From assembly GCF_040518285.1 (NCBI RefSeq), contig NZ_CP155449.1, positions 1,302,001-1,366,000 on the forward strand: a DNA stretch of 64,000 nucleotides, in the 5' to 3' direction. The position numbers were made by a program, and so were the translations under genes. How positions within the stretch are numbered: position 1 is the stretch's first letter; each line of letters starts with the position of its first letter. The stretch comes from Knoellia sp. S7-12 (GTDB lineage: Bacteria; Actinomycetota; Actinomycetes; Actinomycetales; Dermatophilaceae). Below are positions 136-63,168 of this stretch, piece after piece. The notes under the pieces are model-generated. The model was given only the letters and a program-made list of their open reading frames with translations. It searched no databases and had not been told where the DNA came from.

Positions 136-978
136 ATGTGCGGGCGCTACGCGGCAACGGCCAACCCTGACGAGTTGACTCTTGAGTTCGAGGTCGACGA
201 CGACCGCTTGACCGAGCCCACTCGCAGTGTCCTCGTCAACCCTCAGTCGCCTCCACCGGGCAGCCCTGACCACAACATGGCCCCGACCAAGCAAGCACCG
301 GTCATCCTCACCCGATCTCCACGAGGCGACGCCGACGGGGCGCCGGCGCGCCAGCTCCGACTGCTCACCTGGGGGCTCGTCCCGAGCTGGTCCAAGGACC
401 CGAAGTCCGGTGTGCGGATGATCAATGCTCGCGCCGAGTCGGTGCTGGTGAAGCCGGCCTACGCCAAGGCCGCAGCACGGCGGCGGTGTCTCGTCCCGGC
501 GCGGGGTTGGTACGAGTGGCAGGTCTCGCCGACCGCCACCGATGCCAAGGGCAAGGCGCTCAAGCAGCCGTTCTTCACCTCGCGTGACAACGGTGCAAGT
601 TGCGCGTTCGCCGGGCTCTACGAGTTCTGGCGCGATCCTGCCGTGGCCGGCAACGACGATCCCGCCGCATGGCTCACGACGTTCACGATCATCACGACCG
701 AGGCCGAGCCGGGGCTTGACCGCATCCACGACCGCCAGCCCCTTGTCCTCGACCAGGACGACTGGCAGGCGTGGCTCGACCCCGAGCTCACCGACGTCGG
801 CCACGTGGCCGCGCTGCTGCGGCCACGCGAGCCGGGACGCTTCACGGCATACCCCGTCTCTCGGGCCGTGAGCAGCAACCGGTCGAACGGGCCCCAGCTG
901 CTTGACCCGCTCCCAGCATCCGAGCTCCACGGTGTCGTCGACCCCATGACCGGCGAAATCATCGGATCCCCGTTATGA
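136..978 (+). CDS. SRAP (HMCES/YedK-type) abasic-site DNA-protein crosslink protein
   Basis: Predicted 280-residue SRAP protein. The family shields abasic sites in single-stranded DNA by forming a stable thiazolidine bond through the alpha-amine and thiol of Cys2. The chosen start gives Met-Cys-Gly-Arg-Tyr, so Cys2 becomes N-terminal once Met is removed; a longer reading from 46 would bury this cysteine and is rejected. Other active-site residues are visible: Asn97 in MINARAES, Glu127 in GWYEW and His198 in DRIHDRQP. A leaderless -10 box lies 7 nt upstream. The gene ends in an ATGA overlap with the following hydrolase, so the two are probably translationally coupled. Family assignment is firm. 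Confidence 0.93.
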   Translation: MCGRYAATANPDELTLEFEVDDDRLTEPTRSVLVNPQSPPPGSPDHNMAPTKQAPVILTRSPRGDADGAPARQLRLLTWGLVPSWSKDPKSGVRMINARAESVLVKPAYAKAAARRRCLVPARGWYEWQVSPTATDAKGKALKQPFFTSRDNGASCAFAGLYEFWRDPAVAGNDDPAAWLTTFTIITTEAEPGLDRIHDRQPLVLDQDDWQAWLDPELTDVGHVAALLRPREPGRFTAYPVSRAVSSNRSNGPQLLDPLPASELHGVVDPMTGEIIGSPL

Positions 979-1607
979 CCACGCGGCGGCTCGTCGAGGT
1001 CGACACTCCTCTGGGACCGGCGCACGCCCACGTGATGCGGCCGCCGCGCGCTCGCGGCACCGTGATCCTCACGCACGGCGCGAGTGGCCGCCTCGGCGGC
1101 GTCGACCTCACTGCTGTGCGCGATGGCCTCGTCGAGAGTGGCTGGGCAGTGGCCTTCGTGCAGCAGGCGTGGGGCGTTGCCGGACGGCGTATGCCGCCGC
1201 GTCCCGTCCCGCAGGACGAGGCCTGGCTCCCCGTGGTGCTGGCGTTGCGCAGCGGTCGTGGGCGGCTGCCCGGACCCTTGGTCCTGTCGGGCAAGAGCAA
1301 CGGTGCCCGCGTCAGCTGCCGCACGGCCGCCGAGCTCGGGGCAGACGCCGTGCTCTGTCTGTCGTTCCCGTTGCATCCGCCGGGCAAACCAGAGGTGTCG
1401 CGCGCCGACGAGCTGCGACTTCCCGTGGCCGCAGGTATCCCTCTCCACGTCATCCAAGGGGAGCGGGACCCGTTCGGAACCCCGGGTGAGGTGCGAGCAG
1501 AACTCGCGGACCCGGCATACGTCACCGCCGTCAAGGGTGAGCACACGATCAAGGTGACCGTTCCGCTCGTCGAGGCGGCGCGCGCCTTCCTCGAGACGGT
1601 CAGCTAG
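975..1607 (+). CDS. alpha/beta hydrolase of the KANL3/Tex30 (dienelactone-hydrolase-like) type
   Basis: Predicted 210-residue cytoplasmic alpha/beta hydrolase. An HGASG oxyanion-type turn lies near residue 34, the nucleophile elbow is GKSNG with Ser108, the acid is Asp165 in GERDPFG, and the base is His190 in KGEHTIK, so the catalytic triad is intact and in the usual order. The substrate is unknown. It overlaps the SRAP gene by ATGA, and this pairing suggests co-expression, possibly in DNA-damage conditions, but that link is inference only. Confidence 0.8.
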   Translation: MTTRRLVEVDTPLGPAHAHVMRPPRARGTVILTHGASGRLGGVDLTAVRDGLVESGWAVAFVQQAWGVAGRRMPPRPVPQDEAWLPVVLALRSGRGRLPGPLVLSGKSNGARVSCRTAAELGADAVLCLSFPLHPPGKPEVSRADELRLPVAAGIPLHVIQGERDPFGTPGEVRAELADPAYVTAVKGEHTIKVTVPLVEAARAFLETVS

Positions 1608-1640
1608 GTGTACTGACCCGGCAGGTTAGCTAGGGGAGGC

Positions 1641-2180
1641 TCAGAGCGCGCCGCCCGCGGCTTCGGGGGCGGAGTTGTCCGTGGGCTCGGCCTGGGGCTC
1701 GCGGGCCAGGTGCTCCTCGATCTGGAACCAGTCCGCACCTGCGCGCTCGGTGATCGTGAGCAGGGTGTTCATCGATGAGACCTCCTCGACCTGCTCCTTG
1801 AGGAACCACAGCATGAACTGCTCACTGAGGACATCACCCTCGGCGCGGGCGGCGCGGAAGAGCGCCTCGCACTGCTCGGTGACGGCCTTCTCTTGCTGGA
1901 GCGCGAGAGCGATGGGCTCAGCCGGCCGCTCGAAGGCGTTGCGCACCGCGTCGACGCCGGGGATCTCGACTTCCCAGTCACGGTCCAGCATGTAGCGCAC
2001 CATCATCATGGCGTGGTTGCGCTCCTCGACGCTCTGCGCGTAGAAGCGCTCGGCGAGCCGGGGGAGGTCCAGGTCGTCGAACCAGATCGCGATGGCGATG
2101 TATTGCTGACTCGCGGTGAACTCGTGGCGAACCTGCTCCCCGAGCAGGGTGACGAAGGAGGACGTGGTCGGCGTGGTCAT
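1641..2180 (-). CDS. ferritin (BfrB-like, non-heme)
   Basis: 179-residue ferritin: a four-helix iron-storage subunit that oxidises Fe(II) at a ferroxidase centre and forms a 24-mer cage. Helix signatures include HEFTASQQYIA, SVEERNHAMMMV (the ExxH of the di-iron site), EQCEALF and EQFMLWFLKEQVEEV. The ATG at 2180 is preferred over the TTG two codons upstream because a TANNNT box sits 6 nt before it. The last ~15 residues are a charged, Ala-rich tail. It is divergent from sigR; the 157-bp gap holds both promoters, so oxidative stress control of iron storage is plausible but not shown. Confidence 0.9.
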   Translation of the reverse strand: MTTPTTSSFVTLLGEQVRHEFTASQQYIAIAIWFDDLDLPRLAERFYAQSVEERNHAMMMVRYMLDRDWEVEIPGVDAVRNAFERPAEPIALALQQEKAVTEQCEALFRAARAEGDVLSEQFMLWFLKEQVEEVSSMNTLLTITERAGADWFQIEEHLAREPQAEPTDNSAPEAAGGAL

Positions 2181-2186
2181 GCGCAA

Positions 2187-2192: not shown

Positions 2193-2198
2193 CACGCG

Positions 2199-2337: not shown

Positions 2338-2964
2338 ATGAGCACACCACAGACGACCAGCGACGAGCCCACGGTGGATGTCGCGACCGAGACACTGGCG
2401 GAGCGTCAGGCACGCTTCGAAGCGGAGGCCCTGCCGCTGATCGACCAGCTCTACGCCGCCGCCATGCGGACGACCCGCAACCCGGCCGATGCCGAGGACC
2501 TCCTGCAGGAGACCTACGCGAAGGCTTTCGCCGCGTTCCACCAATACAAGCCCGGGACCAACCTCCGGGCCTGGATGTATCGCATCCTCACGAACACCTA
2601 CATCAACACCTATCGCAAGAAGCAGCGCGAGCCGTTGCAGTCCGATGCGGCCGAGGTCGAGGACTACCAACTCGCTCGAGCCGAGTCGCACACGAGTTCC
2701 GGCCTGAAGTCGGCCGAGGCACAAGCCCTCGACCACCTGCCCGACTCCGAGGTGAAGCGGGCCCTTCAGGATCTCCCCGAGGACTTCCGGATGGCGGTCT
2801 ACCTCGCCGACGTCGAGGGCTTCGCCTACAAGGAGATCGCCGAGATCATGGGAACGCCCATTGGCACCGTGATGTCACGACTCCACCGCGGACGACGTCA
2901 GCTCCGCGAAATGCTGACTGAGTATGCCGCCGAGCGCGGCTTCGGCAAGGAGGTCTCGTCGTGA
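2338..2964 (+). CDS. sigR: ECF RNA polymerase sigma factor SigR
   Basis: 208-residue group 4 sigma factor controlling the disulphide (thiol) stress regulon. Region 2 is seen in [18 protein letters not shown] and [16 protein letters not shown]; region 4 in [22 protein letters not shown] and the helix-turn-helix [13 protein letters not shown]. The ATG at 2338 is preceded by GGAG at 2330-2333. An in-frame GTG at 2284 would add 18 residues and lies downstream of the predicted transcript start; in Streptomyces a longer, unstable SigR' isoform is made from an upstream start, so the extension could be real. The next gene, its zinc anti-sigma factor, overlaps by GTGA. Confidence 0.94.
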
Positions 2965-4986: not shown

Positions 4987-6272
4987 GGCGCCCGCAGCTC
5001 AGGGCCGAACCGGTGGTGCTCTTTCTCGCAGCTGTCACAGTCGTCTGGTCCCTGGCGACCGAACACGCCACGATCATCGACTCCATCAAAGAACATCGGT
5101 CGGTCTTCGTTGCCTTTCCAGTGGCCATCGTTGTGGGTGAGTTCTTCAGGGTGCGTATGCCGTCCGGTCGGGTGGTGGCTCCGGTGGCGACAGCGTCCGC
5201 GATCGCGTTGGCGGTTCTTGGACCGGTTTACGGACAACCAACGTTCGACGTTTCCGCGGGAGTCATCAGCCTCGTTGTCTCTGCGGCTTTGAGTGTTGGG
5301 CTGCTTCTGCGACGAATCACGGGTCGCGCTTCCGAGTGGTACATCGTTGCTGCCCGCACCATCGCAGTAGGCGTCACTGCCGCAGTCCTGCGCGCCCCGT
5401 CGTTCGGGGGTGGCGGCGCTTGGGCGTGGCTGTTGGATCCAGGCCGCCCGGAGTGGCTTGTCGCTCTCGTGATGATGGGTGCAGCAGCCGCGGGACTCTA
5501 TGTCGACTTGGTTCTCACCGGCCTGGTGCGGGCCAAGCGACGAGCGCTGCCGGTGGCGAGCACTCTCCGTGAGGAGCTGGGGGAGGCGCAGGCGCTCACC
5601 CTGGGTGTACTGGCGGCCGGACCTCTGGTGGCGTTCCTGGCTCCGGTCGTGGGCCTGGCATCGCTGCCCTTGGGCCTGCTGCCGATGGTGCTGACGTACT
5701 TCGCGGTGCGCCGCTACACGACGAACCGCGAGACCTACCGGCAGACGATTGCCACTCTGTCCCGCCTCACCGAGGTCGCTGGATATACCCCGACAGGGCA
5801 TGCCTCTCGAGTGGCTGCTCGCTCGGTGAGCATCGCGCGCTCCATGGGAATGCACGCTGAGGACGTCCAAGAGCTTGAGTACGCCGCCTTGCTCCATGAC
5901 CTCGGTCAGGTCGGGCTGAGGTCCCCGATCCCTGACGGGGCAACGGTTCTCGCGGCACCTGCTGACCAGCGAAGGATCGCGTCCGAGGGGGCCCGCATCG
6001 TGCGTCGCACCGAGGTCCTCGACCGGGTCGCCGACCTCATGGAGGGACAGACAACACCCTTTCGCCACGTGCGCGAATGGGGCGAGAAGGTGCCGTTGGA
6101 GAGTCGCATCATCAAGGTCTCCAACGCCTTTGACGATTTCTCGCACGGTCGGGCCGACGCTACGTCCATCGACGCGGCCTTGGAGCGGATCCACTTGGGG
6201 CTGGGATACGAGTACGACCCAGAAGTCGTCGAGGCGCTCATCCGCTCAGTGAAGATGACGCCACCCACCTGA
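4983..6272 (+). CDS. membrane protein with degenerate HD-GYP-like domain (second of pair)
   Basis: 429 residues, same design as its upstream neighbour. Hydrophobic segments span roughly residues 10-250. The soluble domain carries TPTGHASRVAARS (His273) and ALLHDLGQVGL (His305-Asp306), then diverges: the region where HHExxDGxGYP should lie reads VADLMEGQTTPFRHV, without the His pair or GYP. SRIIKVSNAFDDF is typical of the last HD-GYP helix. The GTG start overlaps the stop of the previous gene (GTGA), so both are made together and may form a hetero-oligomer. A strong terminator follows directly. Function unknown; the family call is good, the loss of catalytic residues is read directly from the sequence. 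Confidence 0.77.
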   Translation: MRRPQLRAEPVVLFLAAVTVVWSLATEHATIIDSIKEHRSVFVAFPVAIVVGEFFRVRMPSGRVVAPVATASAIALAVLGPVYGQPTFDVSAGVISLVVSAALSVGLLLRRITGRASEWYIVAARTIAVGVTAAVLRAPSFGGGGAWAWLLDPGRPEWLVALVMMGAAAAGLYVDLVLTGLVRAKRRALPVASTLREELGEAQALTLGVLAAGPLVAFLAPVVGLASLPLGLLPMVLTYFAVRRYTTNRETYRQTIATLSRLTEVAGYTPTGHASRVAARSVSIARSMGMHAEDVQELEYAALLHDLGQVGLRSPIPDGATVLAAPADQRRIASEGARIVRRTEVLDRVADLMEGQTTPFRHVREWGEKVPLESRIIKVSNAFDDFSHGRADATSIDAALERIHLGLGYEYDPEVVEALIRSVKMTPPT

Positions 6273-6812: not shown

Positions 6813-7172
6813 TCAGGGCGTATGCCGTGTGGTCACCCTGCCGGGTCGGGGATAAACCCGTGCCACGACTACCGCGACGACGTCGGATTGGTCGAGGGAC
6901 CCCACCTCGAAGGACGTCACGCCCTCACGGGGATTGTCGGAGTCGAGCCACCACCTGTCGGGGGCGTCCGGGTCGACACCGCTGACTCGCTTGATCGAGA
7001 GCGGCCGCGAGGCACCTGTGGCGTCGGGCGGAAGGCGAACGACGGCCACGACGCCGGGACGGACACGGGAACCCCACAGGGCGAGCAGGAGGTCACCCTC
7101 AAGCAGGGTCGGCTCCATGGACCGGCCACGCACCCGCACGACACGGGGACGGGGAATCGACCGGAGGCGCAC
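6813..7172 (-). CDS. sodX: nickel-type superoxide dismutase maturation protease SodX
   Basis: About 119 residues of the signal-peptidase (S24/S26) fold that cleaves the SodN leader to expose the nickel hook. RGRSMEPTLLEGD contains the nucleophile Ser18 and LSIKRV the general base Lys61; WWLDSDNPREG is the conserved substrate-side segment. No membrane anchor, as in other SodX. The start is uncertain: GTG at 7172 gives VRLRSIPRPRVV, the usual beginning; no better start is seen nearby and no clear ribosome binding site precedes it. Co-oriented with sodN. Confidence 0.85.
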   Translation of the reverse strand: MRLRSIPRPRVVRVRGRSMEPTLLEGDLLLALWGSRVRPGVVAVVRLPPDATGASRPLSIKRVSGVDPDAPDRWWLDSDNPREGVTSFEVGSLDQSDVVAVVVARVYPRPGRVTTRHTP

Positions 7173-9445: not shown

Positions 9446-10414
9446 ATGCTCGCCGCCTACGCCGTCTCCCAGTCCGCCGCAGACCCGCTCTCAGGCCTCG
9501 AGGTGGGGGAGCGGCCCGATCCCGAGGCGCGCGACGGCTGGGTCGTCGTCGATCTCAAGACGAGTGCTCTCAATCACCACGACGTCTGGTCGTTGCGTGG
9601 CGTCGGACTGGCTGCCGACCGGTTGCCCATGGTCCTGGGGTGTGACGCTGCGGGCATCGACCCGGACGGCAACGAGGTCCTCATCCACGCAGTCATCCCC
9701 TCTGACGGCTGGCATGGAGACGAGACCCTCGACCCCCGCCGAACCCTGCTCTCAGAACTGCACGACGGCACTCTGGCAACCAAGGTCGCCGTCCCCCGTT
9801 CCAACCTCGTGCCCAAGCCGGCGGAGCTCAGTTGGGAGCAGGCCGCCTGCCTACCGACCGCCTGGCTCACGGCATACCGGATGCTTTTCACGAACTCGCA
9901 GGTGCAGCCCGGAGGCACGGTCCTCGTCCAGGGGGCGGCCGGCGGCGTCGCCACGGCGCTCGTCCAGCTCGGCGCCGCAGCCGGCATCCGTGTGTGGGTG
10001 ACCAGCCGTGATGAGGCCAAGGGCCAGCAGGCGGTCACGCTCGGTGCCGACCGCGCCTTCGCCTCGGGTGAGCGCCTTCCCGAACGCGTCGATGCCGTCA
10101 TGGAGACAGTCGGCGCCGCGACGTGGTCGCACTCGGTCAACGCTCTTCGCCCGGGTGGGACGATCGTCATCTCGGGCGCGACCTCGGGCGATGCTCCGGC
10201 CAAGGCCGAACTCACCAAGATCTTCTTCAAGCAGTTGCGCGTCGTCGGATCGACCATGGGCACACGCGACGAGCTCCAGAAGCTGGCGAAGTTCGTTGTG
10301 GCGCAGGACATCGAGCCCCTCATCGACTCCGTCATCCCGCTCGCTGACGCGCGCGAGGGCTTCGCCAAGATGGTCGACGGTCAGGTCACGGGCAAGGTGG
10401 TGTTCACCGCGTGA
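9446..10414 (+). CDS. zinc-less MDR family alcohol dehydrogenase / quinone oxidoreductase
   Basis: 322 residues of the medium-chain dehydrogenase/reductase fold. An N-terminal GroES-like domain (ALNHHDVWSLRG, LGCDAAG) is followed by a Rossmann domain with VQGAAGGVATALVQLG and TSRDEAKGQQAVTLGAD. The structural four-cysteine zinc lobe is absent. Substrate unknown; quinone or enal reduction with NADPH is the usual activity of this group. The start is fixed by a leaderless promoter box 7 nt upstream. Confidence 0.85.
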   Translation: MLAAYAVSQSAADPLSGLEVGERPDPEARDGWVVVDLKTSALNHHDVWSLRGVGLAADRLPMVLGCDAAGIDPDGNEVLIHAVIPSDGWHGDETLDPRRTLLSELHDGTLATKVAVPRSNLVPKPAELSWEQAACLPTAWLTAYRMLFTNSQVQPGGTVLVQGAAGGVATALVQLGAAAGIRVWVTSRDEAKGQQAVTLGADRAFASGERLPERVDAVMETVGAATWSHSVNALRPGGTIVISGATSGDAPAKAELTKIFFKQLRVVGSTMGTRDELQKLAKFVVAQDIEPLIDSVIPLADAREGFAKMVDGQVTGKVVFTA

Positions 10415-10427: not shown

Positions 10428-11114
10428 TCAGATCTGGAGCCACTCGTTCCAGCCGTTGTGCAGGACGAGCCACGCGATGAGGCCGTAGCCCGCCTGGCCG
10501 GGGTGGTGGCCGTCGCGGCTCGCCGCGAGTTCGGAACGCCACTGGTCGTGCCCGAGCAGCGGTCGGAAGCAGTCGACGAACGGGACTGAGCGCCGTGCGC
10601 ACACGTCGGCCTGCGCCTCGACGAGGACGGCCAGCTTCTCGTTGAACGCGTCGTCACTGGTTGGGGGGCTGCTCACGACGAATGCCGAGACGCCGTTGCT
10701 GGCAGCCTCGTCGAGGACGTTGGCGAGATTGAGACGGTGGCGCGCCAGGGTCACTCCGGCGGCGATGTCGTTGGCGCCGAACGAGATCACGAGCCGTCGC
10801 TCGCTACGTGACTTCCAGCGCGGCGGGCACTCACGGTGCCACTGTGCGAGGACGTCACCGCTCGTCTGGCCGCGGATGCCGAGGTTGTATGCCGTGAACT
10901 CCACCTCTGGGTGCGAGGTGCGCCCGACGACGCGAGTCACCCATCCCTGTCCCTTGGGGTCGCCGACACCGGCCACCATGGAGTCGCCCATGAAGACGAT
11001 GGCGACGTCACGGGGGCCTTCTCCGGGCACGCTGAACTCCGCGCTCGGTCGGAACTCGATGTCGCTGGGGGAGTCCTCTGGGGAGGAGTCCGGTCGGGGG
11101 ATCTGGTCGGTCAT
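10428..11114 (-). CDS. SGNH/GDSL-family hydrolase
   Basis: 228 residues. Block I FMGDSMVAGVGD carries the nucleophilic Ser, block III GANDI the oxyanion Asn, and block V SRDGHHPGQAGY the Asp and His of the triad. No signal peptide is seen, so it is probably an intracellular esterase, lipase or acyl-thioesterase-like enzyme. The N-terminal 35 residues are acidic and Ser/Pro-rich. The stop of DUF6104 is 3 nt before this ATG, so the two form an operon. Confidence 0.87.
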   Translation of the reverse strand: MTDQIPRPDSSPEDSPSDIEFRPSAEFSVPGEGPRDVAIVFMGDSMVAGVGDPKGQGWVTRVVGRTSHPEVEFTAYNLGIRGQTSGDVLAQWHRECPPRWKSRSERRLVISFGANDIAAGVTLARHRLNLANVLDEAASNGVSAFVVSSPPTSDDAFNEKLAVLVEAQADVCARRSVPFVDCFRPLLGHDQWRSELAASRDGHHPGQAGYGLIAWLVLHNGWNEWLQI

Positions 11115-15416: not shown

Positions 15417-15468
15417 GAAAACGAGCCGGTATGCCGTGTGGCCCGCACACGGCATACCAGCTCGTTTT
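15417..15468. terminator. bidirectional terminator built from an inverted pair of CGGCATAC octamers
   Basis: A long stem (about 22 bp with one C-A mismatch) and a 5-nt loop, flanked by T-runs on both strands. The arms contain GTATGCCG at 15429 and CGGCATAC at 15450. It separates the ABC permease stop from kgd. Confidence 0.88.
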
Positions 15469-42975: not shown

Positions 42976-43099
42976 TCCCGAAGACATGCGGAACGGCATA
43001 CAGAACGTGTCTGTCCGCCAGTTCGACCACATCTGAAGAGCACGACACCCCACACACTTCGGCCCCACAGGGGGCTGGTTACCGAGGAGAAGAGATCAC

Positions 43100-50388: not shown

Positions 50389-52476
50389 ATGCCCGAAGAC
50401 CCTTCTGCCGCGCTGCCGCCCGCCGCCGCTCCTGCCCGACCCGAGCGCGACCGTCCGTGGGTCATGCGCACGTATGCCGGCCACTCGAGCGCCGCTGCCT
50501 CGAACGCGCTCTACCGCCGCAACCTCGAGAAGGGGCAGACGGGTCTGTCGGTTGCCTTCGACCTCCCGACCCAGACCGGCTACGACCCCGACCACGTGCT
50601 CGCGCGCGGCGAGGTCGGCAAGGTCGGCGTCCCCATCTCGCACATTGGTGACATGCGGGCGCTCTTCGACCAGATCCCGCTTGGTCAGATGAACACGTCG
50701 ATGACGATCAACGCGACGGCGATGTGGCTGCTCGCGATGTACCAGGTGGCGGCCGAGGACCAGGCCAACGCTGCGGGTGAGGATGCCGCTGAGGTCGTCA
50801 AGGCCCTAGGTGGAACGACGCAGAACGACATCATCAAGGAGTACCTGTCACGCGGGACCTATGTGTTCGCGCCGGCTCCGTCACTGCGACTCATCACGGA
50901 CATGGTGTCCTACACGGTCTCCGACATCCCCAAGTGGAACCCGATCAACATCTGCAGCTATCACCTGCAGGAGGCCGGCGCGACGCCCGTGCAGGAGATC
51001 GCCTACGCGATGTCGACGGCCATCGCGGTGCTCGATGCGGTGCGCGACGCGGGTCAGGTGCCCGAAGAACGCTTCGGTGAGGTCGTCGCCCGCATCTCCT
51101 TCTTCGTCAACGCCGGTGTCCGGTTCGTCGAGGAGATGTGCAAGATGCGCGCCTTCGTCGAGCTGTGGGACGAGCTGACCCGCGAGCGTTATGGCGTGAC
51201 CGACGCCAAGCAGCGGCGCTTTCGCTACGGCGTCCAGGTCAACTCGCTCGGGCTCACCGAGGCTCAGCCAGAGAACAACATTCAGCGCATCGTGCTCGAG
51301 ATGCTCGCAGTCACGCTCTCTAAGGGTGCTCGCGCTCGGGCCGTCCAGTTGCCGGCGTGGAACGAAGCATTGGGACTGCCGCGTCCGTGGGACCAGCAGT
51401 GGTCGCTGCGCATGCAACAGGTGCTGGCCTACGAGTCCGACCTCCTCGAGTACGAAGACCTCTTCGAGGGCTCGAAGGTCGTCGAGACCAAGGTGGCCGA
51501 ACTCGTTGCCGGAGCGAAGGCCGAGATCGCTCGAGTCGCTGAACTGGGTGGGGCCGTGGCGGCCGTCGAGAGCGGCTACATGAAGTCGGCGCTCGTCGCA
51601 TCGCACGCCCTGCGTCGCCAGCGCATCGAGGCCGGCGAGGACATCATCGTCGGCGTCAACAAGTTCGAGACGACCGAGCCCAATCCGCTCACGGCTGACC
51701 TCGACACCGCCATCCAGACGGTCGACGCCGGCGTCGAGGCAGCGGCCTCGAAGGCGGTGCGCGAGTGGCGCGAGAGGCGCGACGCGGACCCTGCCAAGCG
51801 CGATCGGGCAGCCGCTGCGCTGGCCCGGCTGAGGGCCGCCGCCACCACGGACGAGAACCTCATGGAGGCCTCGATCGAGTGCGCCCGCGCCGAGGTGACG
51901 ACGGGGGAGTGGGCCCAGGCCCTGCGCGACGTGTTTGGCGAGTTCCGCGCCCCCACAGGCGTCACGGGTTCGGTAGGTCTCACGGGTGGGGCCGCCGGCG
52001 CCGAGCTCTCTGCCGTGCGCGAGCGAGTCGGGGCATTGCGCGACGAGCTGGGCGAGACCCTGCGCGTCCTCGTCGGCAAGCCGGGGCTCGACGGACACTC
52101 CAACGGGGCCGAGCAGATCGCCGTGCGTGCGCGCGACGCCGGCTTCGAGGTCATCTATCAGGGCATCCGGCTCACGCCCGAGCAGATCGTTGCTGCGGCT
52201 GTGTCCGAGGACGTCCACCTCGTCGGCATCTCGATCCTGTCCGGGTCGCACATGGAACTCGTGCCCGAGATTCTCGATGGGCTGCGCGAGGCCGGTGCCG
52301 GCGACATCCCGGTCATCGTCGGCGGGATCATCCCCGAGTCCGACGCGGCAAAACTGAAGGCGCTGGGTGTGGCCGAGGTGTTCACCCCCAAGGACTTCGG
52401 CCTGAACGACATCATGTCCAGGTTCGTCGACGTCATCCGCGACTCCCGCATGGCAACGGCAGTCCCCTCCGCCTGA
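50389..52476 (+). CDS. B12-dependent acyl-CoA mutase, ethylmalonyl-CoA mutase (Ecm/MeaA) type
   Basis: 695 residues in one chain: TIM-barrel acyl-CoA domain (RTYAGHSSAAASNALYRRNLEKGQTGLSVAFDLPTQTGYD) and, from ~residue 555, a B12-binding domain with the base-off motif LDGHSNGAEQIA (Asp568, His570), SILSGSH and VGGIIPE. The GHSNGAEQIA form and single-chain length around 680 are what I associate with MeaA/Ecm rather than the two-subunit methylmalonyl-CoA mutase; isobutyryl-CoA or methylmalonyl-CoA activity is the alternative. Ecm belongs to the ethylmalonyl-CoA route for acetate assimilation. No ccr or partner genes are in the window. The start is supported by a leaderless box. Confidence 0.85.
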   Translation: MPEDPSAALPPAAAPARPERDRPWVMRTYAGHSSAAASNALYRRNLEKGQTGLSVAFDLPTQTGYDPDHVLARGEVGKVGVPISHIGDMRALFDQIPLGQMNTSMTINATAMWLLAMYQVAAEDQANAAGEDAAEVVKALGGTTQNDIIKEYLSRGTYVFAPAPSLRLITDMVSYTVSDIPKWNPINICSYHLQEAGATPVQEIAYAMSTAIAVLDAVRDAGQVPEERFGEVVARISFFVNAGVRFVEEMCKMRAFVELWDELTRERYGVTDAKQRRFRYGVQVNSLGLTEAQPENNIQRIVLEMLAVTLSKGARARAVQLPAWNEALGLPRPWDQQWSLRMQQVLAYESDLLEYEDLFEGSKVVETKVAELVAGAKAEIARVAELGGAVAAVESGYMKSALVASHALRRQRIEAGEDIIVGVNKFETTEPNPLTADLDTAIQTVDAGVEAAASKAVREWRERRDADPAKRDRAAAALARLRAAATTDENLMEASIECARAEVTTGEWAQALRDVFGEFRAPTGVTGSVGLTGGAAGAELSAVRERVGALRDELGETLRVLVGKPGLDGHSNGAEQIAVRARDAGFEVIYQGIRLTPEQIVAAAVSEDVHLVGISILSGSHMELVPEILDGLREAGAGDIPVIVGGIIPESDAAKLKALGVAEVFTPKDFGLNDIMSRFVDVIRDSRMATAVPSA

Positions 52477-53789: not shown

Positions 53790-53863
53790 GCCCTCAGTGG
53801 ATCAGCCGAGAAGGTGCGGTGTCGAACTGATTCGGGACCGAACGGCATACCCAAAGGATTGTC

Positions 53864-54970: not shown

Positions 54971-55575
54971 TGATGAACCAGCAGACCACCCTCGATGCCG
55001 GATGGCGCCGCGACTTCGTGGTGGCTCTTCGCCTGCGGAACGTCCCGGCCGCGTCGATCGCCGATCACCTCAAACTGGTCGAGACCCACTGCGCCGAGTC
55101 GGGGGAGCCGGCGCAGGACGCCTTCGGTGACCCAGCGGCATACGCCCAGAGTCTGGCTGGCAGTCCCGCCGACAGCGTGGCGGACCTGGCGCCGTTGCTT
55201 CCCAGCGCCGTCCTCGGCTTCCTTGCCGGAGCCCTCACCCTCGAGGGCATCAAGGGCATGCTCGGCGACGAGGACGTGACGGTCCGGGTGGGCGACCTCG
55301 GGGGTGCTGTCGTCCTCGTCGGCGCGGCCCTCGGGGTGCTGGTTCTCCTGGGCCGCTTGAAGCGGCCCCTCCTGGCGGTGTTCGTGCTGGTGGTCGCAGC
55401 GGTTGCGCTTGCCGTGGTGCTCGACGTCGCCGACACCGCTGTGCTGTTCGCGTGCCCTGCATGGCTCGCCCTGGCCATCGGCGCCTCGTCGTTTGCGGTT
55501 CTCGCAGTGTTTGGGGTGCGCCGGGCGCGCAGCGAGCGCGTGTCAGACCCTCTGAGTGGGGAGTCGATGCTCTGA
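54967..55575 (+). CDS. HAAS-like membrane protein, partner of PadR
   Basis: 202 residues. Residues ~10-75 form a soluble helical domain resembling HAAS/DUF1700 (WRRDFVVALRLRNVPAASIADHLKLVETHCAESGEPAQDAFGDPAAYAQSL), followed by about four membrane helices. Such proteins are regularly paired with PadR regulators and are thought to sense envelope state; function unproven. Three tandem ATGs (54967, 54970, 54973) follow AAGGAG; the second or third has better spacing. Confidence 0.8.
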   Translation: MMMNQQTTLDAGWRRDFVVALRLRNVPAASIADHLKLVETHCAESGEPAQDAFGDPAAYAQSLAGSPADSVADLAPLLPSAVLGFLAGALTLEGIKGMLGDEDVTVRVGDLGGAVVLVGAALGVLVLLGRLKRPLLAVFVLVVAAVALAVVLDVADTAVLFACPAWLALAIGASSFAVLAVFGVRRARSERVSDPLSGESML

Positions 55576-55591: not shown

Positions 55592-56287
55592 TCAGAACAG
55601 TCGGTGTTCGCTGTTGTCGATGCCCTTGAGGTCGTCGTAGTCGAGAACGACACAGCGTATGCCGCGGTCCTCGGCGAGCGTGCGTGCCTGCGGCTTGATC
55701 TGTTGCGCGGCAAAGACACCGGCCACGGGTCGCAGGTGCGGATCGCGGTTCATCAGCTCGAGGTAGCGGGTGAGCTGCTCGACTCCATCGATGTCACCCC
55801 GACGCTTGATCTCGACTGCCACCGTCGCCCCAGCCGCGTCCTTGCAGAGGATGTCCACGGGACCGATCGGCGTCATGTACTCGCGCCGCGTCAGGGTGTA
55901 GCCATCGCCGAGGGTCGTGATGTGCTCGGCGAGGAGCTTCTGGAGGTGGGCCTCGACCCCGTCCTTCACCAGACCCGGGTCGACGCCGAGGTCGTGACTG
56001 GTGTCGCTGTGGATCTCGTGCATCTTGACCCGCAGGCGGTCCTCCGACTTGGCATGCTGCACGACCCACACCGCTGTGACCCCGTCTGCGACCTCTGTCT
56101 CGTCCGGGTCGACTTCGGCCATGGCGCACGGCGGGGACATCCAGTTGAGGGGCTTGTAGGAACCGCCATCGGAGTGGATGAGGACCGAGCCGTCAGCCTT
56201 GACCATGAGCAACCGGGTCGCGAGCGGGAGATGGGCCGTCAGCCGACCGTCGTAGTCAACGCTGCATTTCGCAATCACCACTCGCAC
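55592..56287 (-). CDS. nucS: mismatch-specific endonuclease NucS (EndoMS)
   Basis: 231 residues. Cuts both strands at mismatches and replaces MutS/MutL in most actinobacteria. N-terminal dimer/DNA-binding part [36 protein letters not shown]-terminal RecB-like nuclease with GPVDILCKD and VAVEIKRRG (Asp, Glu-x-Lys). The end DNSEHRLF fits a sliding-clamp binding motif. The GTG at 56287 is chosen over the one at 56293 because a leaderless box lies 6 nt before it and it gives the usual start. Confidence 0.95.
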
Positions 56288-56453: not shown

Positions 56454-57791
56454 GTGCGTGCGCGCCCCGCCCCCCAAGAAACCGACATTCTCGCCGAGCC
56501 ACTCAGCGGCGGCGTCGTGACCGACCAGCGGCCAGCAGCGCCCCAGACGCAGTCAACGGCCCTCGCCGGGCGTGCCTATCTCAAGATGGTCCTCGTCCTT
56601 GGCGCTCTGGTCGCCCTGGGTCCCCTGACGATCGACACCTACCTGCCCGCGCTGCCAACGCTCGCGGACGACCTCGGTGCCACCGAGCCACAGGTGCAGT
56701 TCACCCTCACCGGCATCATGCTCGGCCTCGGTCTCGGGCAGTTGGTGCTCGGGCCGATCTCGGATGCCGTCGGGCGTCGCCGCGTCATGCTCGGCGGCAT
56801 CGTCGCCCACGCCGTGATGTCCGTGCTGGCCGCGCTCGCTCCGTCCATCGAGGTGCTCACTGCTGTCCGCATCGGTCAGGGCGTCTCGGGTGCGGCGGTC
56901 GCGGTCACGGCGATGGCCGTCGTGCGTGACCTGTTCACCGGGCGGCGGGCGGCAGGTCTGCTGAGCCACCTCACGCTGGTCATCGGCGTGGCTCCCATCC
57001 TCGCTCCGTCACTCGGCAGCCTCCTGCTCCAGCTCACGGGTTGGCGCGGGATCTTCGTGGCGCTGGCCCTCGTCGCGGTCGTGCTCTTCGTGGTCGCGCT
57101 GCTCGGCATGAACGAGACCCTGCCGGTCGAGCGGCGGCGGCCCGCGAGGATCGGTGCCACCCTCCGCACGTATGCCGTGCTGCTGCGCGACCGCGCCTTC
57201 GTCGGTCTGGTGCTGCTCGCGGGCCTGATGTTCAGTGCCCTCTTCGCCTACGTCGCGGGTTCGTCGTTCGTCCTGCAGGAGTACTACGGCCTGGACCAAC
57301 AGCAGTTCGGCATCCTGTTCGGCGTCAACGCCGCTGGCCTGATCGTGGCGACCCAGGTCAACCCATTCCTCCTGCGCAGGTGGGAACCTCAGCACATCCT
57401 GACGGGCGGGGTGGGTCTGGGCATGCTCGCGACAACCGCCCTGCTCGTGGCCGCACTGATCGATGCGCCGCTGGTGCTGGTGCTCGTGCCGCTGTGGTTC
57501 GTCATGTTTGCGGTGGGCCTGTCGTTCCCCAACACTCCGGCGCTCGCATTGTCGCGTCACGGTGAGGCCGCGGGCTCTGCGGCAGCGCTGCTCGGTGCCA
57601 TCCAGTTCGGGATGGCGAGCATCATCACCCCCCTGACCGGCCTGATCAGCACCGGGAGTGCGGTCGGCATGGCCGTGGTGATGTTCGGAGCGGTGTGGCT
57701 GGGTGCCCTCGTCCTGCTGGTCCTCGTGCAGCCCTCACGGCTCGTTGTCGAGCAGGACGAGGTCGCGGACGTCGCTCTCGCGGCGGTTTGA
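56454..57791 (+). CDS. Bcr/CflA family multidrug efflux MFS transporter
   Basis: 445 residues, twelve helices. TIDTYLPALPTLADDLG in helix 1, GQLVLGPISDAVGRRRVML as the loop 2-3 motif, and RIGQGVSGAAVAVTAMAVVRDL in helix 4 are classic Bcr/CflA (bicyclomycin/chloramphenicol-type export). GTG 56454 with AGGAG upstream; the first ~40 residues are a polar extension and a later start is possible. Confidence 0.92.
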   Translation: MRARPAPQETDILAEPLSGGVVTDQRPAAPQTQSTALAGRAYLKMVLVLGALVALGPLTIDTYLPALPTLADDLGATEPQVQFTLTGIMLGLGLGQLVLGPISDAVGRRRVMLGGIVAHAVMSVLAALAPSIEVLTAVRIGQGVSGAAVAVTAMAVVRDLFTGRRAAGLLSHLTLVIGVAPILAPSLGSLLLQLTGWRGIFVALALVAVVLFVVALLGMNETLPVERRRPARIGATLRTYAVLLRDRAFVGLVLLAGLMFSALFAYVAGSSFVLQEYYGLDQQQFGILFGVNAAGLIVATQVNPFLLRRWEPQHILTGGVGLGMLATTALLVAALIDAPLVLVLVPLWFVMFAVGLSFPNTPALALSRHGEAAGSAAALLGAIQFGMASIITPLTGLISTGSAVGMAVVMFGAVWLGALVLLVLVQPSRLVVEQDEVADVALAAV

Positions 57792-57872: not shown

Positions 57873-59651
57873 ATGTCACGTGAGTTCACCAAGGTAGGCG
57901 TCATCGGGCTGGGCACCATGGGTGCCGGAATCGTGGAGGTGTTCGCGCGCAACGGGATCGACGTCGTCGCGGTCGATGTCACGGATGAGGCGGTCGAGCG
58001 AGGTCGCTCCTTCCTCAGCAAGTCCACGGGTCGCGCGCTCGACCGCGGCAAGATCGACCAGGCCGCCCATGACACCCTGCACGGGCACGTCAGCTATGCG
58101 ACCGACTTCGAGTCGCTCGCGAATTGCCAGCTCGTCGTCGAGGCCGTGCCCGAGCACTTGGATCTCAAGAAGGAGATCTTCGCCAAGCTCGATGCGATCG
58201 TCGCACCGGACGCCATCCTCGCGACCAACACGTCGTCGCTGCCCGTCACCGAGATCGCTGCCTCGACCAGCACCCCCATGCGAGTCGTCGGCATGCACTT
58301 CTTCAACCCGGCGCCCGTCCAGCAGTTCGTCGAGGTCATCCGCACGGTCATCACCGCTGACGACGTCTTCGAGGACGTCAAGGCACTCGCCGAGCGGATC
58401 GACAAGAAGCCGGTCATCGTCGGCGACAAGGCCGGCTTCATCGCCAATGCCCTGCTCTTCGGCTACTTGAACCACGCGGTGTCGATGTTCGAGAGCCGCT
58501 ACGCGACGCGTGAAGACATCGACGCATCGATGAAGCTCGGCTGCGGCTACCCGATGGGACCGCTCGCGCTGCTCGACCTCATCGGTCTCGACACGGCATA
58601 CGAGATTCTCGACACGATGTACAAGCAGGGACGCGACCGCCTCCACGCACCCAGCCCGATCATCAAGCAGATGGTGTCCGCCGGTCTCAAGGGTCGCAAG
58701 ACCGGGCGGGGTTTCTACACGTATGCCGCGGCCGGTTCGCCCGAGGTCGTCACCGATGTGCACACGCCCGTCGACGGTGTCACCGAGGGCGTGCAGCTGC
58801 GCGAGATCTCGTCGGTCGGCGTCGTCGGCTCCGGCACGATGGCGACGGGCATCATCGAGGTCTTCGCCAAGGCCGGCAAGAGCGTCACCTTTGTGGCCCG
58901 CAGCCAGGACAAGCTTGACGGTGTCCGTGCCGCGATCGAGAAATCGCAGGCCCGCGCCGTCGAGAAGGGTCGCGCCACCCAGCAGGAGGCCGACGAGCTG
59001 CTCGCGCGCCTGCACCCGACGACGGAACGCGCCGACCTCGCCGAGGTCGACCTCGTCGTCGAGGCCATCGCCGAGGACCTCGAGATCAAGCAGGAGCTCT
59101 TTCGCGAGCTCGACAAGATCTGCAAGCCCGGCGCAATCCTCGCCACGACGACCTCGTCCCTGCCGATCATCGACTGCGCGAGGGTGACCTCGCGGCCGGA
59201 GGACGTCGTCGGCATGCACTTCTTCAACCCGGCGCAGATCATGAAGCTCGTGGAGGTCGTGCACACCGTGTCGACCGGCGACGACGTCGTCGCGACCGTG
59301 CAGGAGTTGTGTCGCGAGATCGGCAAACACCCGGTGACCTGTGGTGACCGCTCGGGCTTCATCGTCAATGCACTGCTCTTTCCCTACCTCAACGACGCGA
59401 TCAAGATGCTCGACGCCAACTACGCCTCTGCTGATGACATCGACACTGCGATGAAGACCGGCTGTGGTCTGCCGATGGGGCCGTTCGAGCTCCTCGACGT
59501 CGTCGGTCTGGACGTGTCGCTGGCGATCGAGCGCGAGCTCTACATCGAGTTCCGCGAGCCGGGATATGCACCCGCGCCCCTGCTCGAGCACCTCGTGACG
59601 GCGGGCTACCTCGGTCGCAAGACGGGGCGCGGCTTCCGCACCTACGCCTGA
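57873..59651 (+). CDS. duplicated 3-hydroxyacyl-CoA dehydrogenase
   Basis: 592 residues made of two complete 3-hydroxybutyryl-CoA dehydrogenase units in tandem (~1-285 and ~305-592). Each has a Rossmann start (VGVIGLGTMGAGI and VGVVGSGTMATGI), the Ser/Thr site (ATNTSSLPV and ATTTSSLPI), the catalytic His in GMHFFNPA, the Glu in VVEAVPE and VVEAIAE, and the C-terminal Gly-Arg-Lys-Thr-Gly-Arg-Gly-Phe ending. Both halves look active. It oxidises 3-hydroxyacyl-CoA with NAD in beta-oxidation or acetoacetyl-CoA metabolism. ATG with GGGAG upstream. Confidence 0.93.
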   Translation: MSREFTKVGVIGLGTMGAGIVEVFARNGIDVVAVDVTDEAVERGRSFLSKSTGRALDRGKIDQAAHDTLHGHVSYATDFESLANCQLVVEAVPEHLDLKKEIFAKLDAIVAPDAILATNTSSLPVTEIAASTSTPMRVVGMHFFNPAPVQQFVEVIRTVITADDVFEDVKALAERIDKKPVIVGDKAGFIANALLFGYLNHAVSMFESRYATREDIDASMKLGCGYPMGPLALLDLIGLDTAYEILDTMYKQGRDRLHAPSPIIKQMVSAGLKGRKTGRGFYTYAAAGSPEVVTDVHTPVDGVTEGVQLREISSVGVVGSGTMATGIIEVFAKAGKSVTFVARSQDKLDGVRAAIEKSQARAVEKGRATQQEADELLARLHPTTERADLAEVDLVVEAIAEDLEIKQELFRELDKICKPGAILATTTSSLPIIDCARVTSRPEDVVGMHFFNPAQIMKLVEVVHTVSTGDDVVATVQELCREIGKHPVTCGDRSGFIVNALLFPYLNDAIKMLDANYASADDIDTAMKTGCGLPMGPFELLDVVGLDVSLAIERELYIEFREPGYAPAPLLEHLVTAGYLGRKTGRGFRTYA

Positions 59652-59679: not shown

Positions 59680-62139
59680 GTGAGTGCCGCAACGAAGCTC
59701 CCCGCCCGCGCCCAGGTCGTCATCATCGGCGGCGGGGTGATCGGCGCCTCCATCGCCTACCACCTCGCCCACGAGGGGGTCACCGACGTCGTCCTCATCG
59801 AGCGCGACCGTCTGACCAGTGGCACCACATGGCACGCGGCCGGACTGATGACGTGCTTCGGGACGACGAGCGAAACCCTCACCGGGATCCGCCTGAATTC
59901 GCGTGACCTCTTTGCGCGGCTCGAGGCCGAGACCGGACTGTCGACGGGGTTCCGGCCGGTGGGCCTCATCGAGGCAGTGGGCGACACCGACCGGCTCGAG
60001 GAGTACCGCCGGGTCGCGACCTTCCAACGCCGTCTCGGGCTCGAGGTCAACGAGATCAGCCCGCGCGAGATGGCCGAGCTCTTCCCGCTTGCCGACATGG
60101 ACGGTCTCATCTCCGGCTTCCACGTGCCCGGCGACGGTCGCGTCAACCCGGTCGACCTCACCATGTCGCTGGCCCGCGGGGCCAAGAACCTCGGGGTGCG
60201 CATCGTCGAGGGCGTCACCGCTGGCGACGTCATCACCCGCACCGACGGCGCCCTGCCTCGTGTCACCGGCGTCCGCACCAGCGCGGGTGACATCGAGTGC
60301 GAGACCGTCGTCAACTGCACCGGCATGTGGGCGCGCCAGCTGGGGGAGCGGCACGGCGTCGTCATCCCCAACCAGGCCGCCGAGCACTACTACCTCATCA
60401 CGGACACCATCCCCGGGCTCGACCCCAACGGTCCGGTGTTCGAGGACCCGGCACGCTACGGCTACTACCGCGAAGAGGGCGGCGGCATGATGGTCGGGCT
60501 GTTCGAGCCGGTCGCGGCCGCCTGGAACCTCGATGGCATCCCCGAGGACTTCTCCTTCGGCACGCTGCCGCCCGACTGGGACCGCATGGCGCCGGCCCTG
60601 GAGGCGGCGATGTCGCGGGTGCCGGTGACCCTGGAGGCAGGCGTGCGGACCTTCTTCTGCGGACCCGAGTCGTTCACTCCCGACCGGTTGCCTGCCGTGG
60701 GAGAGGCGCCCGGCCTGCAGGGCTATTTCGTTGCGGCAGGCCTCAATTCGGTCGGCATCCTCAGCAGTGGTGGGCTGGGACGCGTGGTCGCGCAATGGAT
60801 CGCGAGCGGTCGCCCCGACGTCGACGTCACGGCGATCGACGTCGCCCGCTTCATGCCGCACCAGCTCCAGCGCGACTACCGACGCGACCGTGTCACCGAG
60901 GTCCTCGGCAAGACGTATGCCGCGCACACGCCCGGCATCGAGCTCCTCACCGGACGCGGCACCTTCGTCTCGCCCGTCCATGAGGACATGGTCGCCGCGG
61001 GGGCACGGCTCAAGGACGTCTCGGGCTGGGAGAGCGCGGACTGGTATGCCGGTGACGGACAGGATGCGCACGTCACCCCCTCGTGGAGTCGGCAGCCGTG
61101 GTTCGACGCGTGGGAGGCCGAGCACCGGGCCGTTCGGGAGGCCGTGGGTCTCATCGACATGTCGTTCATGGCGACGTTCGTGGTCGGAGGGAGGGACGCC
61201 GGCGTCGTCCTCGAGCGGGTGAGCGCTGGTCACGTCGACGGGGACGTCGACCGGATCACCTACACGCAGTGGCTCGGGCCCGACGGCGGGCTCGAGGCCG
61301 ACCTCACCGTGACCAAACGCGGCGAGAACGACTTCCTCGTCGTCGCATCCGACACCGCCCACGGGCACACGCTCGCGTGGCTGCGACGACAGGTCGGCGA
61401 CGCCGACCTCACGATCGAGGACGTCACCGTGGCGACCGGTCAACTCAACGTCCAGGGCCCGCGCTCGCGCGCGCTGCTCGACGCCCTGACCGACGCCGAC
61501 CTGTCGCACGAGGCGTTCCCCTTCCGCACCGCGCGCATGATCATCCTCGCCGAAATCGAGGTGCTGTGCGTGCGCATCACCTATGTGGGAGAGCTCGGCT
61601 ATGAGCTCTACCTCCCGCGCGACCGGACCGCAGAGCTCTGGAGCGTGCTGCGCTCGGAGGGCACGGCATACGGAATCCGTCCCGTCGGGCTCCGAGCGCT
61701 CGGTTCGCTCCGTCTCGAGAAGGCGTACCGCGACTACGGCCACGACATCGACAACACCGACACCGTCGGGATGGCCGGTCTCGGCTTCGCCGTCGACCTC
61801 GAGCACGACTTCATCGGGCGCGAGGCGGTAATCGCCGAGCGCGAGCAGCCGCGTCACGAGAAGCTCGTCCAGGTGCTGCTCACCGATCCGGAACCATTGA
61901 TGTTCGGTGCCGAGGTGCTGCTGCGTGACGGTGTGCCGGTCGGTGACGTGCGATCCGCGTCGTACGGCTGGACGCTCGGTGGTGCGGTCGGCATCGCCGC
62001 GGTGACGTCCGACGGCCCGGTGACCAAGGCGTGGCTCGAGGACGGCACGTGGGAGGTCGACATCGCCGGCAGGCGCATCCCGGCGAGGGTCTCGCTCCGA
62101 CCGCTCTACGACCCGACGAGCGCCCGCGTCCGCACCTGA
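59680..62139 (+). CDS. dimethylglycine/sarcosine dehydrogenase-like flavoprotein with GcvT domain
   Basis: 819 residues. N-terminal DAO-type FAD domain (VVIIGGGVIGASIAYHLAHEG, covalent-FAD His in TTWHAAGLM), FAO-type middle region, and C-terminal GcvT-like tetrahydrofolate domain from ~residue 425 (RTARMIILAEIEVLCVRITYVGELGYELYLP). Oxidatively demethylates N-methylglycines, passing the C1 unit to folate. The electron acceptor (ETF or oxygen) cannot be told. GTG start supported by a leaderless box. Confidence 0.92.
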   Translation: MSAATKLPARAQVVIIGGGVIGASIAYHLAHEGVTDVVLIERDRLTSGTTWHAAGLMTCFGTTSETLTGIRLNSRDLFARLEAETGLSTGFRPVGLIEAVGDTDRLEEYRRVATFQRRLGLEVNEISPREMAELFPLADMDGLISGFHVPGDGRVNPVDLTMSLARGAKNLGVRIVEGVTAGDVITRTDGALPRVTGVRTSAGDIECETVVNCTGMWARQLGERHGVVIPNQAAEHYYLITDTIPGLDPNGPVFEDPARYGYYREEGGGMMVGLFEPVAAAWNLDGIPEDFSFGTLPPDWDRMAPALEAAMSRVPVTLEAGVRTFFCGPESFTPDRLPAVGEAPGLQGYFVAAGLNSVGILSSGGLGRVVAQWIASGRPDVDVTAIDVARFMPHQLQRDYRRDRVTEVLGKTYAAHTPGIELLTGRGTFVSPVHEDMVAAGARLKDVSGWESADWYAGDGQDAHVTPSWSRQPWFDAWEAEHRAVREAVGLIDMSFMATFVVGGRDAGVVLERVSAGHVDGDVDRITYTQWLGPDGGLEADLTVTKRGENDFLVVASDTAHGHTLAWLRRQVGDADLTIEDVTVATGQLNVQGPRSRALLDALTDADLSHEAFPFRTARMIILAEIEVLCVRITYVGELGYELYLPRDRTAELWSVLRSEGTAYGIRPVGLRALGSLRLEKAYRDYGHDIDNTDTVGMAGLGFAVDLEHDFIGREAVIAEREQPRHEKLVQVLLTDPEPLMFGAEVLLRDGVPVGDVRSASYGWTLGGAVGIAAVTSDGPVTKAWLEDGTWEVDIAGRRIPARVSLRPLYDPTSARVRT

Positions 62140-62192
62140 GCGCAGCAGACCTGAGAGCCTCCCGATCGGCGGGTCGGTGGATCTGCTCGGCG

Positions 62193-62807
62193 TCAGGTCA
62201 GGGCGGGCACTCCGGGTCCCCCCACGTCGGCCAGTGCCTCACGGCGACCCGAGACGACGAGCAGGAGCGACAGGACGGTGCCGCTGACCTCGGGCCCGTC
62301 GCCGATGACCACGTCGGCATCCGTGGCGCGCAGGGTCACGCCGGCGACGCGCTGTTTGCCGCCACCCATGCCGACCGATGTCCGGGCCTGATAGCGCAGC
62401 GACCGCTCGACGGCCTCGGGCGAGTAGGCCCGAGGGAGGCCGAGGGGTCGCCGGATGTCTTCGCCGTGGACGACCTCCTCGACGAGACGGCTGTCGAGCG
62501 GTGCAGGTGGTCCGGACCGGCGGTCGGCCACCGCGCGTAGCCCCTCGAGGGTGTCGGCGGACGAGGCGCCCAGCTCGCTGGCCACACCCATCGCATTCTG
62601 CCGGTCGAAGTCGAAGCGGGCTCGGGCCATGGCGACAACGAACCCGAGCCTGGTCGTGCGGGCGTTGTGGACCAGATGGGCCGCCACCTCCCTCACGGTC
62701 CAGTCGCCGCACAGCGACTGCTGACGCCACTGGGCCTCGTCGAGACCCGAGAGGTCCCGGATGAGGGCCACCCGCTCCGCGTGCACCATGTCCCACGTGT
62801 CACTCAT
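62193..62807 (-). CDS. mycothiol-dependent maleylpyruvate isomerase-like protein (DinB fold)
   Basis: 204 residues. The N-terminal MDMPI domain has CGDWTVREVAAHLVHNAR, with the first metal His, and RLVEEVVHGEDIRR with the Glu/His pair of the other ligands. Members use mycothiol as cofactor; maleylpyruvate isomerase is the namesake but most are uncharacterised. No aromatic catabolism genes nearby. Confidence 0.83.
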   Translation of the reverse strand: MSDTWDMVHAERVALIRDLSGLDEAQWRQQSLCGDWTVREVAAHLVHNARTTRLGFVVAMARARFDFDRQNAMGVASELGASSADTLEGLRAVADRRSGPPAPLDSRLVEEVVHGEDIRRPLGLPRAYSPEAVERSLRYQARTSVGMGGGKQRVAGVTLRATDADVVIGDGPEVSGTVLSLLLVVSGRREALADVGGPGVPALT

Positions 62808-62868
62808 GTCAGCACCCTCTCAGGCGCCGGTGACAGTGGCTCCGGGACGAATCTGCGACGCTTGACCC

Positions 62869-63168
62869 ATGCCTCGCGCCAACCGACGACGTCCCGACGA
62901 CGTGCCCCTCGCGATGGGGCGCCTCGGTCGCGGTGGCACGACCACCGAGTCGTATGCCGGTCAGCGCTGGACGGTGCGGCGTCTCACCGGTGAGTCCTCG
63001 GAACGCGCCTACATGTGCCCCGGCTGCGAGCAGGACGTTGTGCCGGGAACGCCTCACGTCGTCGCCTGGCCCGAGGAAGGGGTCGGCGGGGTCGGGGACC
63101 GTCGGCACTGGCACACTCCGTGCTGGGCCGCGCGCGAGCGTCGACACCCGCGGGGCGCAATCCGCTGA
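62869..63168 (+). CDS. small zinc-ribbon-like protein of unknown function
   Basis: 99 residues. MCPGCEQDV and, after ~25 residues, HWHTPCWAARER give two Cys, His and Cys positions that could bind one zinc; the layout resembles a stripped HNH or zinc-ribbon module. The N-terminus is Arg-rich. I recall homologues in many actinobacteria labelled ATP/GTP-binding protein without basis. ATG 62869. Confidence 0.7.
   Translation: MPRANRRRPDDVPLAMGRLGRGGTTTESYAGQRWTVRRLTGESSERAYMCPGCEQDVVPGTPHVVAWPEEGVGGVGDRRHWHTPCWAARERRHPRGAIR

Follow-up and report, generated by a model that had tools for sequence, protein, structure and literature searches.

The window, a stretch of 64,000 nucleotides from the genome of Knoellia sp. 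S7-12 (contig NZ_CP155449.1, positions 1,302,001 to 1,366,000), contains many copies of a short non-palindromic word, the octamer GTATGCCG/CGGCATAC, which will be called GTATGCCG. We have found 44 exact copies, the first at 845 and the last at 62952-62959, against a mean of 0.77 and a maximum of 4 in 100 dinucleotide shuffles. A sequence-only reading of this DNA had reported 46 copies of a heptamer, about 44 of them extending to the octamer, and recounting gives 46 heptamers and 44 octamers. It had also proposed that two or three octamers should be expected, a figure which must be lowered, as an order-2 Markov model predicts 1.16 copies; the over-representation itself stands. Both orientations are present in similar numbers, 25 and 19, as had been noticed.

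All sites are exact matches. Those on the forward strand are found at 1189..1196, 2922..2929, 5155..5162, 6820..6827, 10887..10894, 15429..15436, 16941..16948, 20983..20990, 24333..24340, 25333..25340, 29665..29672, 31734..31741, 33764..33771, 34897..34904, 39607..39614, 44743..44750, 48278..48285, 50081..50088, 50472..50479, 55657..55664, 57170..57177, 58721..58728, 60915..60922, 61044..61051 and 62952..62959. Those on the reverse strand are found at 845..852, 1513..1520, 9870..9877, 15450..15457, 18654..18661, 21139..21146, 22662..22669, 27285..27292, 30914..30921, 33790..33797, 37837..37844, 42994..43001, 44808..44815, 48038..48045, 50026..50033, 53843..53850, 55136..55143, 58594..58601 and 61664..61671. 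The sites at 33764 and 33790 lie within the gene for release factor 1. The sites at 15429 and 15450 are the left and right arms of an inverted pair, which face each other head-to-head in a hairpin (15421..15465) placed between two open reading frames (ORFs) on the minus strand, the putative genes 11366-15298 and 15536-16345. The minus-strand RNA of this hairpin has a predicted folding energy of -43.2 kcal/mol (z -8.55), and terminator prediction finds it terminator-like on both strands.

The abundance of the word is confirmed in the whole genome, a single contig of 4,163,720 bases with 2805 copies (674 per Mb), 1406 forward and 1399 reverse. The same word read backwards, used as a control, has 33 and 46 copies. 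We have also analyzed a 464-kb sample, made up of the window and 20 stretches of 20 kb dispersed over the genome. This sample contains 341 copies, while Markov models of orders 1 to 5 computed on masked sequence predict 5.3, 6.8, 4.1, 4.4 and 7.9, and each of the 20 stretches has between 10 and 21. By likelihood ratio, GTATGCCG ranks first among all octamers at orders 3 and 4. Without masking, the expectation climbs with order (14.5, 58.7, 209 and 324 for orders 3, 4, 5 and 6), because pieces of the word itself feed the model. The sequence-only reading had suggested that a count close to a third- or higher-order expectation would refute its claim: The count is far above expectation at orders 3 and 4, and orders 5 and 6 are uninformative.

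Chi and KOPS sequences are strand-biased with replication. The balance between strands had been taken as evidence against this kind of polarity, and the genomic figures bear this out; no consistent bias appears among the 20 stretches either, the widest split being 9 and 3. A genome-wide short word could favour repair with self DNA, so a Chi-like recombination hotspot for AdnAB or RecBCD has to be considered. Besides strand balance, head-to-head hairpins and the dialects described below are unexpected for such a hotspot, which we find very improbable.

The placement of the sites indicates that selection acts on DNA rather than protein, as had been proposed. By number, most copies in the 464-kb sample are in genes, as had been stated (215 of 341, with 122 noncoding and 4 straddling a boundary); per kb they are denser outside, 1.39 in noncoding DNA against 0.57 in genes, according to a crude gene finder which inflates the noncoding share. 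Coding copies are mainly read as Tyr-Ala (93) or Ala-Tyr (72), as the sequence-only reading had observed, with 50 across the other four frames, so that all six are used. There are 25 close pairs of sites (less than 60 bp apart): 17 head-to-head, 4 tail-to-tail, and 2 and 2 direct; 15 of the 17 head-to-head pairs were called noncoding.

These data contradict, as a full explanation, the view that the word is a by-product of biased codon pairs or composition, or a family of terminators. Two frames account for 165 of the 215 coding copies and some copies belong to terminator-like hairpins, as such an origin would predict. Nevertheless, masked Markov models predict 4-8 copies of 341, the majority of copies stand alone (the 341 form 25 close pairs), and a foreign element of similar GC, described below, is four-fold poorer in the word. 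Codon-pair bias in particular, which had been named as a possible objection, is ruled out because the word is denser outside genes than inside them. We give this explanation practically no credit.

A softer preference extends beyond the octamer. In the own-genome sample, the base at +8 is T in 42% of the sites and A in 3%, against 17% and 34% for control words, and the base at +18, ten bases further, is T in 36% against 12%; this control is unmatched, as it ignores reading frame. Sites are also conserved: 63 of 76 aligned window sites are intact in seven Knoellia loci, compared with 0.34-0.43 for other octamers with 5 GC, although the 76 comparisons are not independent, since each window site is compared up to seven times.

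To follow the word in related genomes we have used a family (group f1) of 186 genomes, whose named members belong to Intrasporangiaceae, Ornithinimicrobiaceae and Dermatophilaceae in the NCBI taxonomy; Knoellia itself is placed there in Intrasporangiaceae, Micrococcales. By its release factor 1 gene, the window is closest to Janibacter sp. HTCC2649 (95% identity), followed by Knoellia species. Where the window aligns with HTCC2649 the identity is 85.8%, so it probably represents a different species of the Knoellia group. All 9 genomes of the genus examined have between 1971 and 3277 copies, and 110 of the 186 family genomes have at least 300. In 22 genomes from other families of the order the count does not exceed 167 (58 were searched, 36 of them within the family). 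In the class outside the family (144 of 148 sampled genomes) the maximum is 386 copies, about 51 per Mb, in a 7.5-Mb genome which also has 176 copies of the control word. Among named loci, mostly 12-21 kb long, the word is found in Knoellia, Pedococcus, Intrasporangium, Terracoccus, Ornithinimicrobium, Serinicoccus, Arsenicicoccus and Nostocoides jenkinsii. The named loci of the Phycicoccus jejuensis clade have no copies, and those of Janibacter at most one each. GTATGCCG is a mark of one actinobacterial family. Two single genomes depart from their congeners, which have hundreds to nearly two thousand copies: G141 (group g68) has 50 and G065 (g52) has 37.

Many family genomes poor in GTATGCCG have another word instead. 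Among the 76 with fewer than 300 copies, 4 have at least 1800 copies of GGATGCCG, 10 have at least 1100 of GTACGCCG and 19 have at least 1100 of CGAAGGGG; these four cut-offs were set after the tables had been seen, and genomes were counted by reading. GGATGCCG and GTACGCCG differ from GTATGCCG by one base and may be described as dialects of it. Two dialects can coexist in one genome: G084 and G085 have 1217 and 1189 copies of GTATGCCG together with 2195 and 2099 of GGATGCCG. They can also differ within a genus group, as in g25, where G119 has 3681 copies of GTATGCCG and G118 has 19 but 1463 copies of GTACGCCG. Aligned GTATGCCG sites read GTACGCCG in G118 in 3 of 3 cases from G032 and 3 of 10 from G119, both small samples.

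In 100-140 kb of each of four genomes, G121, G059, G033 and G082, GGATGCCG or GTACGCCG is the top octamer at order 3, with 132, 98, 133 and 123 copies against masked order-3 expectations of 16.7, 10.7, 7.4 and 7.0, and occupies all six frames. This speaks against GTACGCCG being simply Tyr-Ala codon use. In G121 and G033 the dialect word has a higher density in intergenic DNA than in genes, and the four samples contain 2, 2, 4 and 3 head-to-head pairs. In shorter samples the dialect is not always the top word (26 copies of GTACGCCG in 40 kb of G120, 3 in 20 kb of G118). We have rejected GTACGCCG as a dialect in group g2, where 11 of 14 coding copies share one frame, which looks like codon use. 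In the same group, G009 and G181 have 1336 and 1210 copies of GGATGCCG, compared with 614-949 in the other ten genomes; this may reflect codon use, or a dialect which is weak or being lost.

A different situation is found in Janibacter and its kin (groups g63 and g67), whose 19 genomes contain 1198-3180 copies each of an unrelated word, CGAAGGGG(G). It was first seen in named Janibacter loci and in g67. It is strand-balanced genome-wide, although the named loci, which span one region, have 63 and 32 copies. Where its copies lie close together, they face each other head-to-head in 4 of 5 pairs in named Janibacter and 6 of 6 in g67.

Dialects cluster by phylogeny. In a release factor 1 tree of 74 rows, labelled by word density per locus (7 loci under 11 kb were dropped and GTACGCCG was left unlabelled), Janibacter forms one clade. 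The labels change twice for GGATGCCG, 9 times for GTATGCCG and 10 times for all four states, compared with a shuffled mean of 30.6.

Some other repeated words were also seen. A candidate from the Mobilicoccus set, CGGTTGTC, was discarded as mainly a local tandem repeat in Agilicoccus. CCTGTCCG has 9 copies in 21 kb of Intrasporangium flavum. Longer words are locally strong in L117 (G030), L123 and L175 (G065), and L114 and L165 (g11); for example, AGTTCGACG is found 27 times in 20 kb of G030. These longer words are perhaps tandem or dispersed repeats, not dialects.

Another possibility is that a nucleoid or chromosome-organising protein binds the word, at sites evenly spread over the chromosome. 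All 20 stretches contain it in comparable numbers and its sites are conserved, which agree with such a function. It has no polarity (1406 and 1399), the intervals between copies are near random (coefficient of variation 0.96 in the 464-kb sample), dialects differ within one genus group (G118 against G032 and G119), and in 43 of 186 genomes no word was found. A nucleoid-protein site is thus improbable.

The genome also contains DNA of foreign origin which is poor in the word. In one tad locus the flp pilin gene is broken in two, with the first part at 680,862-680,966, the last part at 842,327-842,464 and about 161 kb (680970-842326) separating them. At the right end of this insert there is an ORF of 533 amino acids which by eye looks like a large serine recombinase, and the insert carries a TrwC relaxase and a TraG/TraD-type coupling protein; on the basis of these predicted genes we consider it an integrative conjugative element. 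It has 25 copies of GTATGCCG, against 108.7 at the genome rate, a four-fold deficit, and 2 in its first 62 kb, with a GC content of 0.673, compared with 0.674 in the window. Mobile elements which break competence genes, of which flp is a likely one, are a known theme. Between tadC and flp, a TetR-like and two SMR-like genes were also recognised by eye.

Phage TJE1 (GC 0.577) has 2 copies in 49.2 kb, near its own expectation of 0.6-0.9, while its host Tetrasphaera jenkinsii, which we take to be the present Nostocoides jenkinsii, has 20 in 21.1 kb. An extended word of 18 bases had no matches in the viral contigs scanned. Judging from one element and one phage, GTATGCCG thus marks resident DNA.

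Genes of a putative machinery for DNA uptake are present in this strain. It has comEC, preceded by a ComEA-like gene, and outside the conjugative element it carries two tad loci, including the one whose flp is broken; a further T2SSE match, the third, falls within that element. A ComEC match is found in 180 of the 186 family genomes, a TadA-like ATPase in 184 (paralogues were not separated), and a ComEA-like gene in all 46 loci tried. ComEC and the ATPase are near-universal and do not track the word, so presence or absence does not single out either of them as its receptor. With two short loci set aside, the pilin loci of 18 genomes, and also ComEA, have no plain dialect mark when read by eye.

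A comparison with known systems, based on the cited papers, is informative. Only Neisseriaceae and Pasteurellaceae are described there as discriminating DNA by such words, named DNA uptake sequences (DUS) and uptake signal sequences (USS), and inverted pairs of both act as terminators (PMC12616744). The DUS is a non-palindromic word of about 10 bases, with eight dialects which follow phylogeny, differ by about one base and have 943 to 5918 copies; one genome has two dialects and five family genomes have none (PMC3630211). It has no orientation bias, about 10% of the copies form inverted repeats (PMC1939737), and it drops sharply in genomic islands (PMC7371117). The GTATGCCG family matches this pattern: phylogeny-following dialects one base apart, two-dialect genomes, wordless relatives, terminator-like inverted pairs and a drop in one conjugative element. 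The differences are that its host is a high-GC monoderm actinobacterium with Tad/Flp, not type IVa pili, that the sequence is unrelated, and that no ComP-like receptor was found. The USS is a 9-base word found 200-800 times per Mb, which exists as two types within one family and also forms terminator pairs (PMC12616744); the 674 copies per Mb of GTATGCCG may be compared with this density. The sequence of the USS is also unrelated. A common core is present in both USS types, but none is evident between CGAAGGGG and GTATGCCG.

Transformation in Micrococcus luteus requires two tad loci (PMC4322843), and the Knoellia genome has two outside the element, together with comEA and comEC. On the other hand, an uptake sequence is not mentioned in the two M. 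luteus papers checked for the term. No article on actinobacterial uptake sequences, or on a word such as this one among articles containing the octamer string, was recognised by title or abstract start.

We consider that GTATGCCG is probably a DNA uptake sequence, a self-recognition mark of this actinobacterial family. It has the features of such words: a high copy number, a non-palindromic form without strand bias, intergenic enrichment and inverted pairs in its own genome, dialects which follow phylogeny, and rarity in one conjugative element and one phage. The host belongs to Actinomycetota, not to Neisseriaceae or Pasteurellaceae, which limits homology and not the mode of working. A putative surface receptor would bind GTATGCCG on free DNA, and DNA bearing the word would be preferentially taken up and then recombined. 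Such biased transformation, a molecular drive, could spread the word through the genome, where it would be retained if coding constraint permits. Entry would probably take place through the Tad/Flp pilus and ComEA/ComEC, because M. luteus needs a Tad/Flp pilus for transformation. We infer uptake, receptor and drive; together they would explain abundance, balance, use of all frames, hairpins, conservation, dialects and rarity in foreign DNA. A more specific proposal, somewhat less certain although still favoured, is that this is a third, independently evolved uptake-sequence system and the first in Gram-positives, with an octamer read by a Tad/Flp pilus, one-base shifts and an unrelated replacement in Janibacter.

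The sequence-only reading had listed an uptake sequence together with marks similar to the cyanobacterial HIP1 and with nucleoid, methylation or repair marks. Among these, an uptake sequence fits best and HIP1 poorly, because the word is non-palindromic, has one-base dialects, gives way to an entirely different word from one genus to another, makes hairpins of inverted pairs and is less frequent in the conjugative element. HIP1 is an octamer which can number from hundreds to more than a thousand per Mb, is scarce in some clades and is methylated at the site. A similar intracellular mark, kept by a methyltransferase, repair or gene conversion and with no role in uptake, would also have thousands of copies, most of them in genes, and be rare in the element and the phage; in addition, all 43 wordless genomes have ComEC, which gives no tie between the word and competence. 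Nevertheless, HIP1 (GCGATCGC) is palindromic and GTATGCCG, with its dialects, is not. Dialects, mixed-dialect genomes and the Janibacter word would need a recogniser changing along with thousands of sites, and head-to-head terminator pairs are a published trait of DUS and USS (PMC12616744). We consider such a mark unlikely, although likelier than the other alternatives.

Several observations weigh against an uptake sequence. One-base neighbours of GTATGCCG are no more than mildly enriched in the 464-kb sample, 338 against 235 expected at order 3 (summed by hand). The 25 copies in the conjugative element exceed the 2.4-3.4 expected from its own composition, and rarity in foreign DNA would also be expected of other genome-wide marks. 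Intergenic enrichment is not seen in G059 and G082 (0.79 against 0.82 and 1.07 against 1.25 per kb), nor for CGAAGGGG in the g63 sample, which has zero close pairs. In small samples, G082 does not have GGATGCCG at any of 7 GTATGCCG sites of G084, and between these genomes 4 of 15 and 4 of 9 GGATGCCG sites are preserved, close to the background of 0.27-0.29. At the chosen cut-offs, 43 of 186 family genomes carry none of the four words and all of them match ComEC, whereas GTATGCCG is carried by all 6 genomes that lack such a match (completeness 58-95%); the machinery is therefore no guide to the presence of the word. Wordless genomes may have unselective uptake, words missed by samples of 20-80 kb, or no transformation. 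The comparison of ComEC and TadA presence, pilin loci and ComEA did not yield a receptor, and a literature search on natural transformation in Intrasporangiaceae, covering one family name and few subscription papers, found no article. The split flp, as predicted from the genome, may also mean that this strain is not transformable now.

The natural dialect pairs provide a handle for the receptor search, in which G141 and G065, lone genomes without the word among their congeners, should also be useful, and the word is a possible tag for genetic tools in environmental actinobacteria. If GTATGCCG is indeed an uptake sequence, much of the family is or was transformable, and a third origin, in monoderms and with a different pilus, would suggest that uptake sequences recur as a result of biased transformation.

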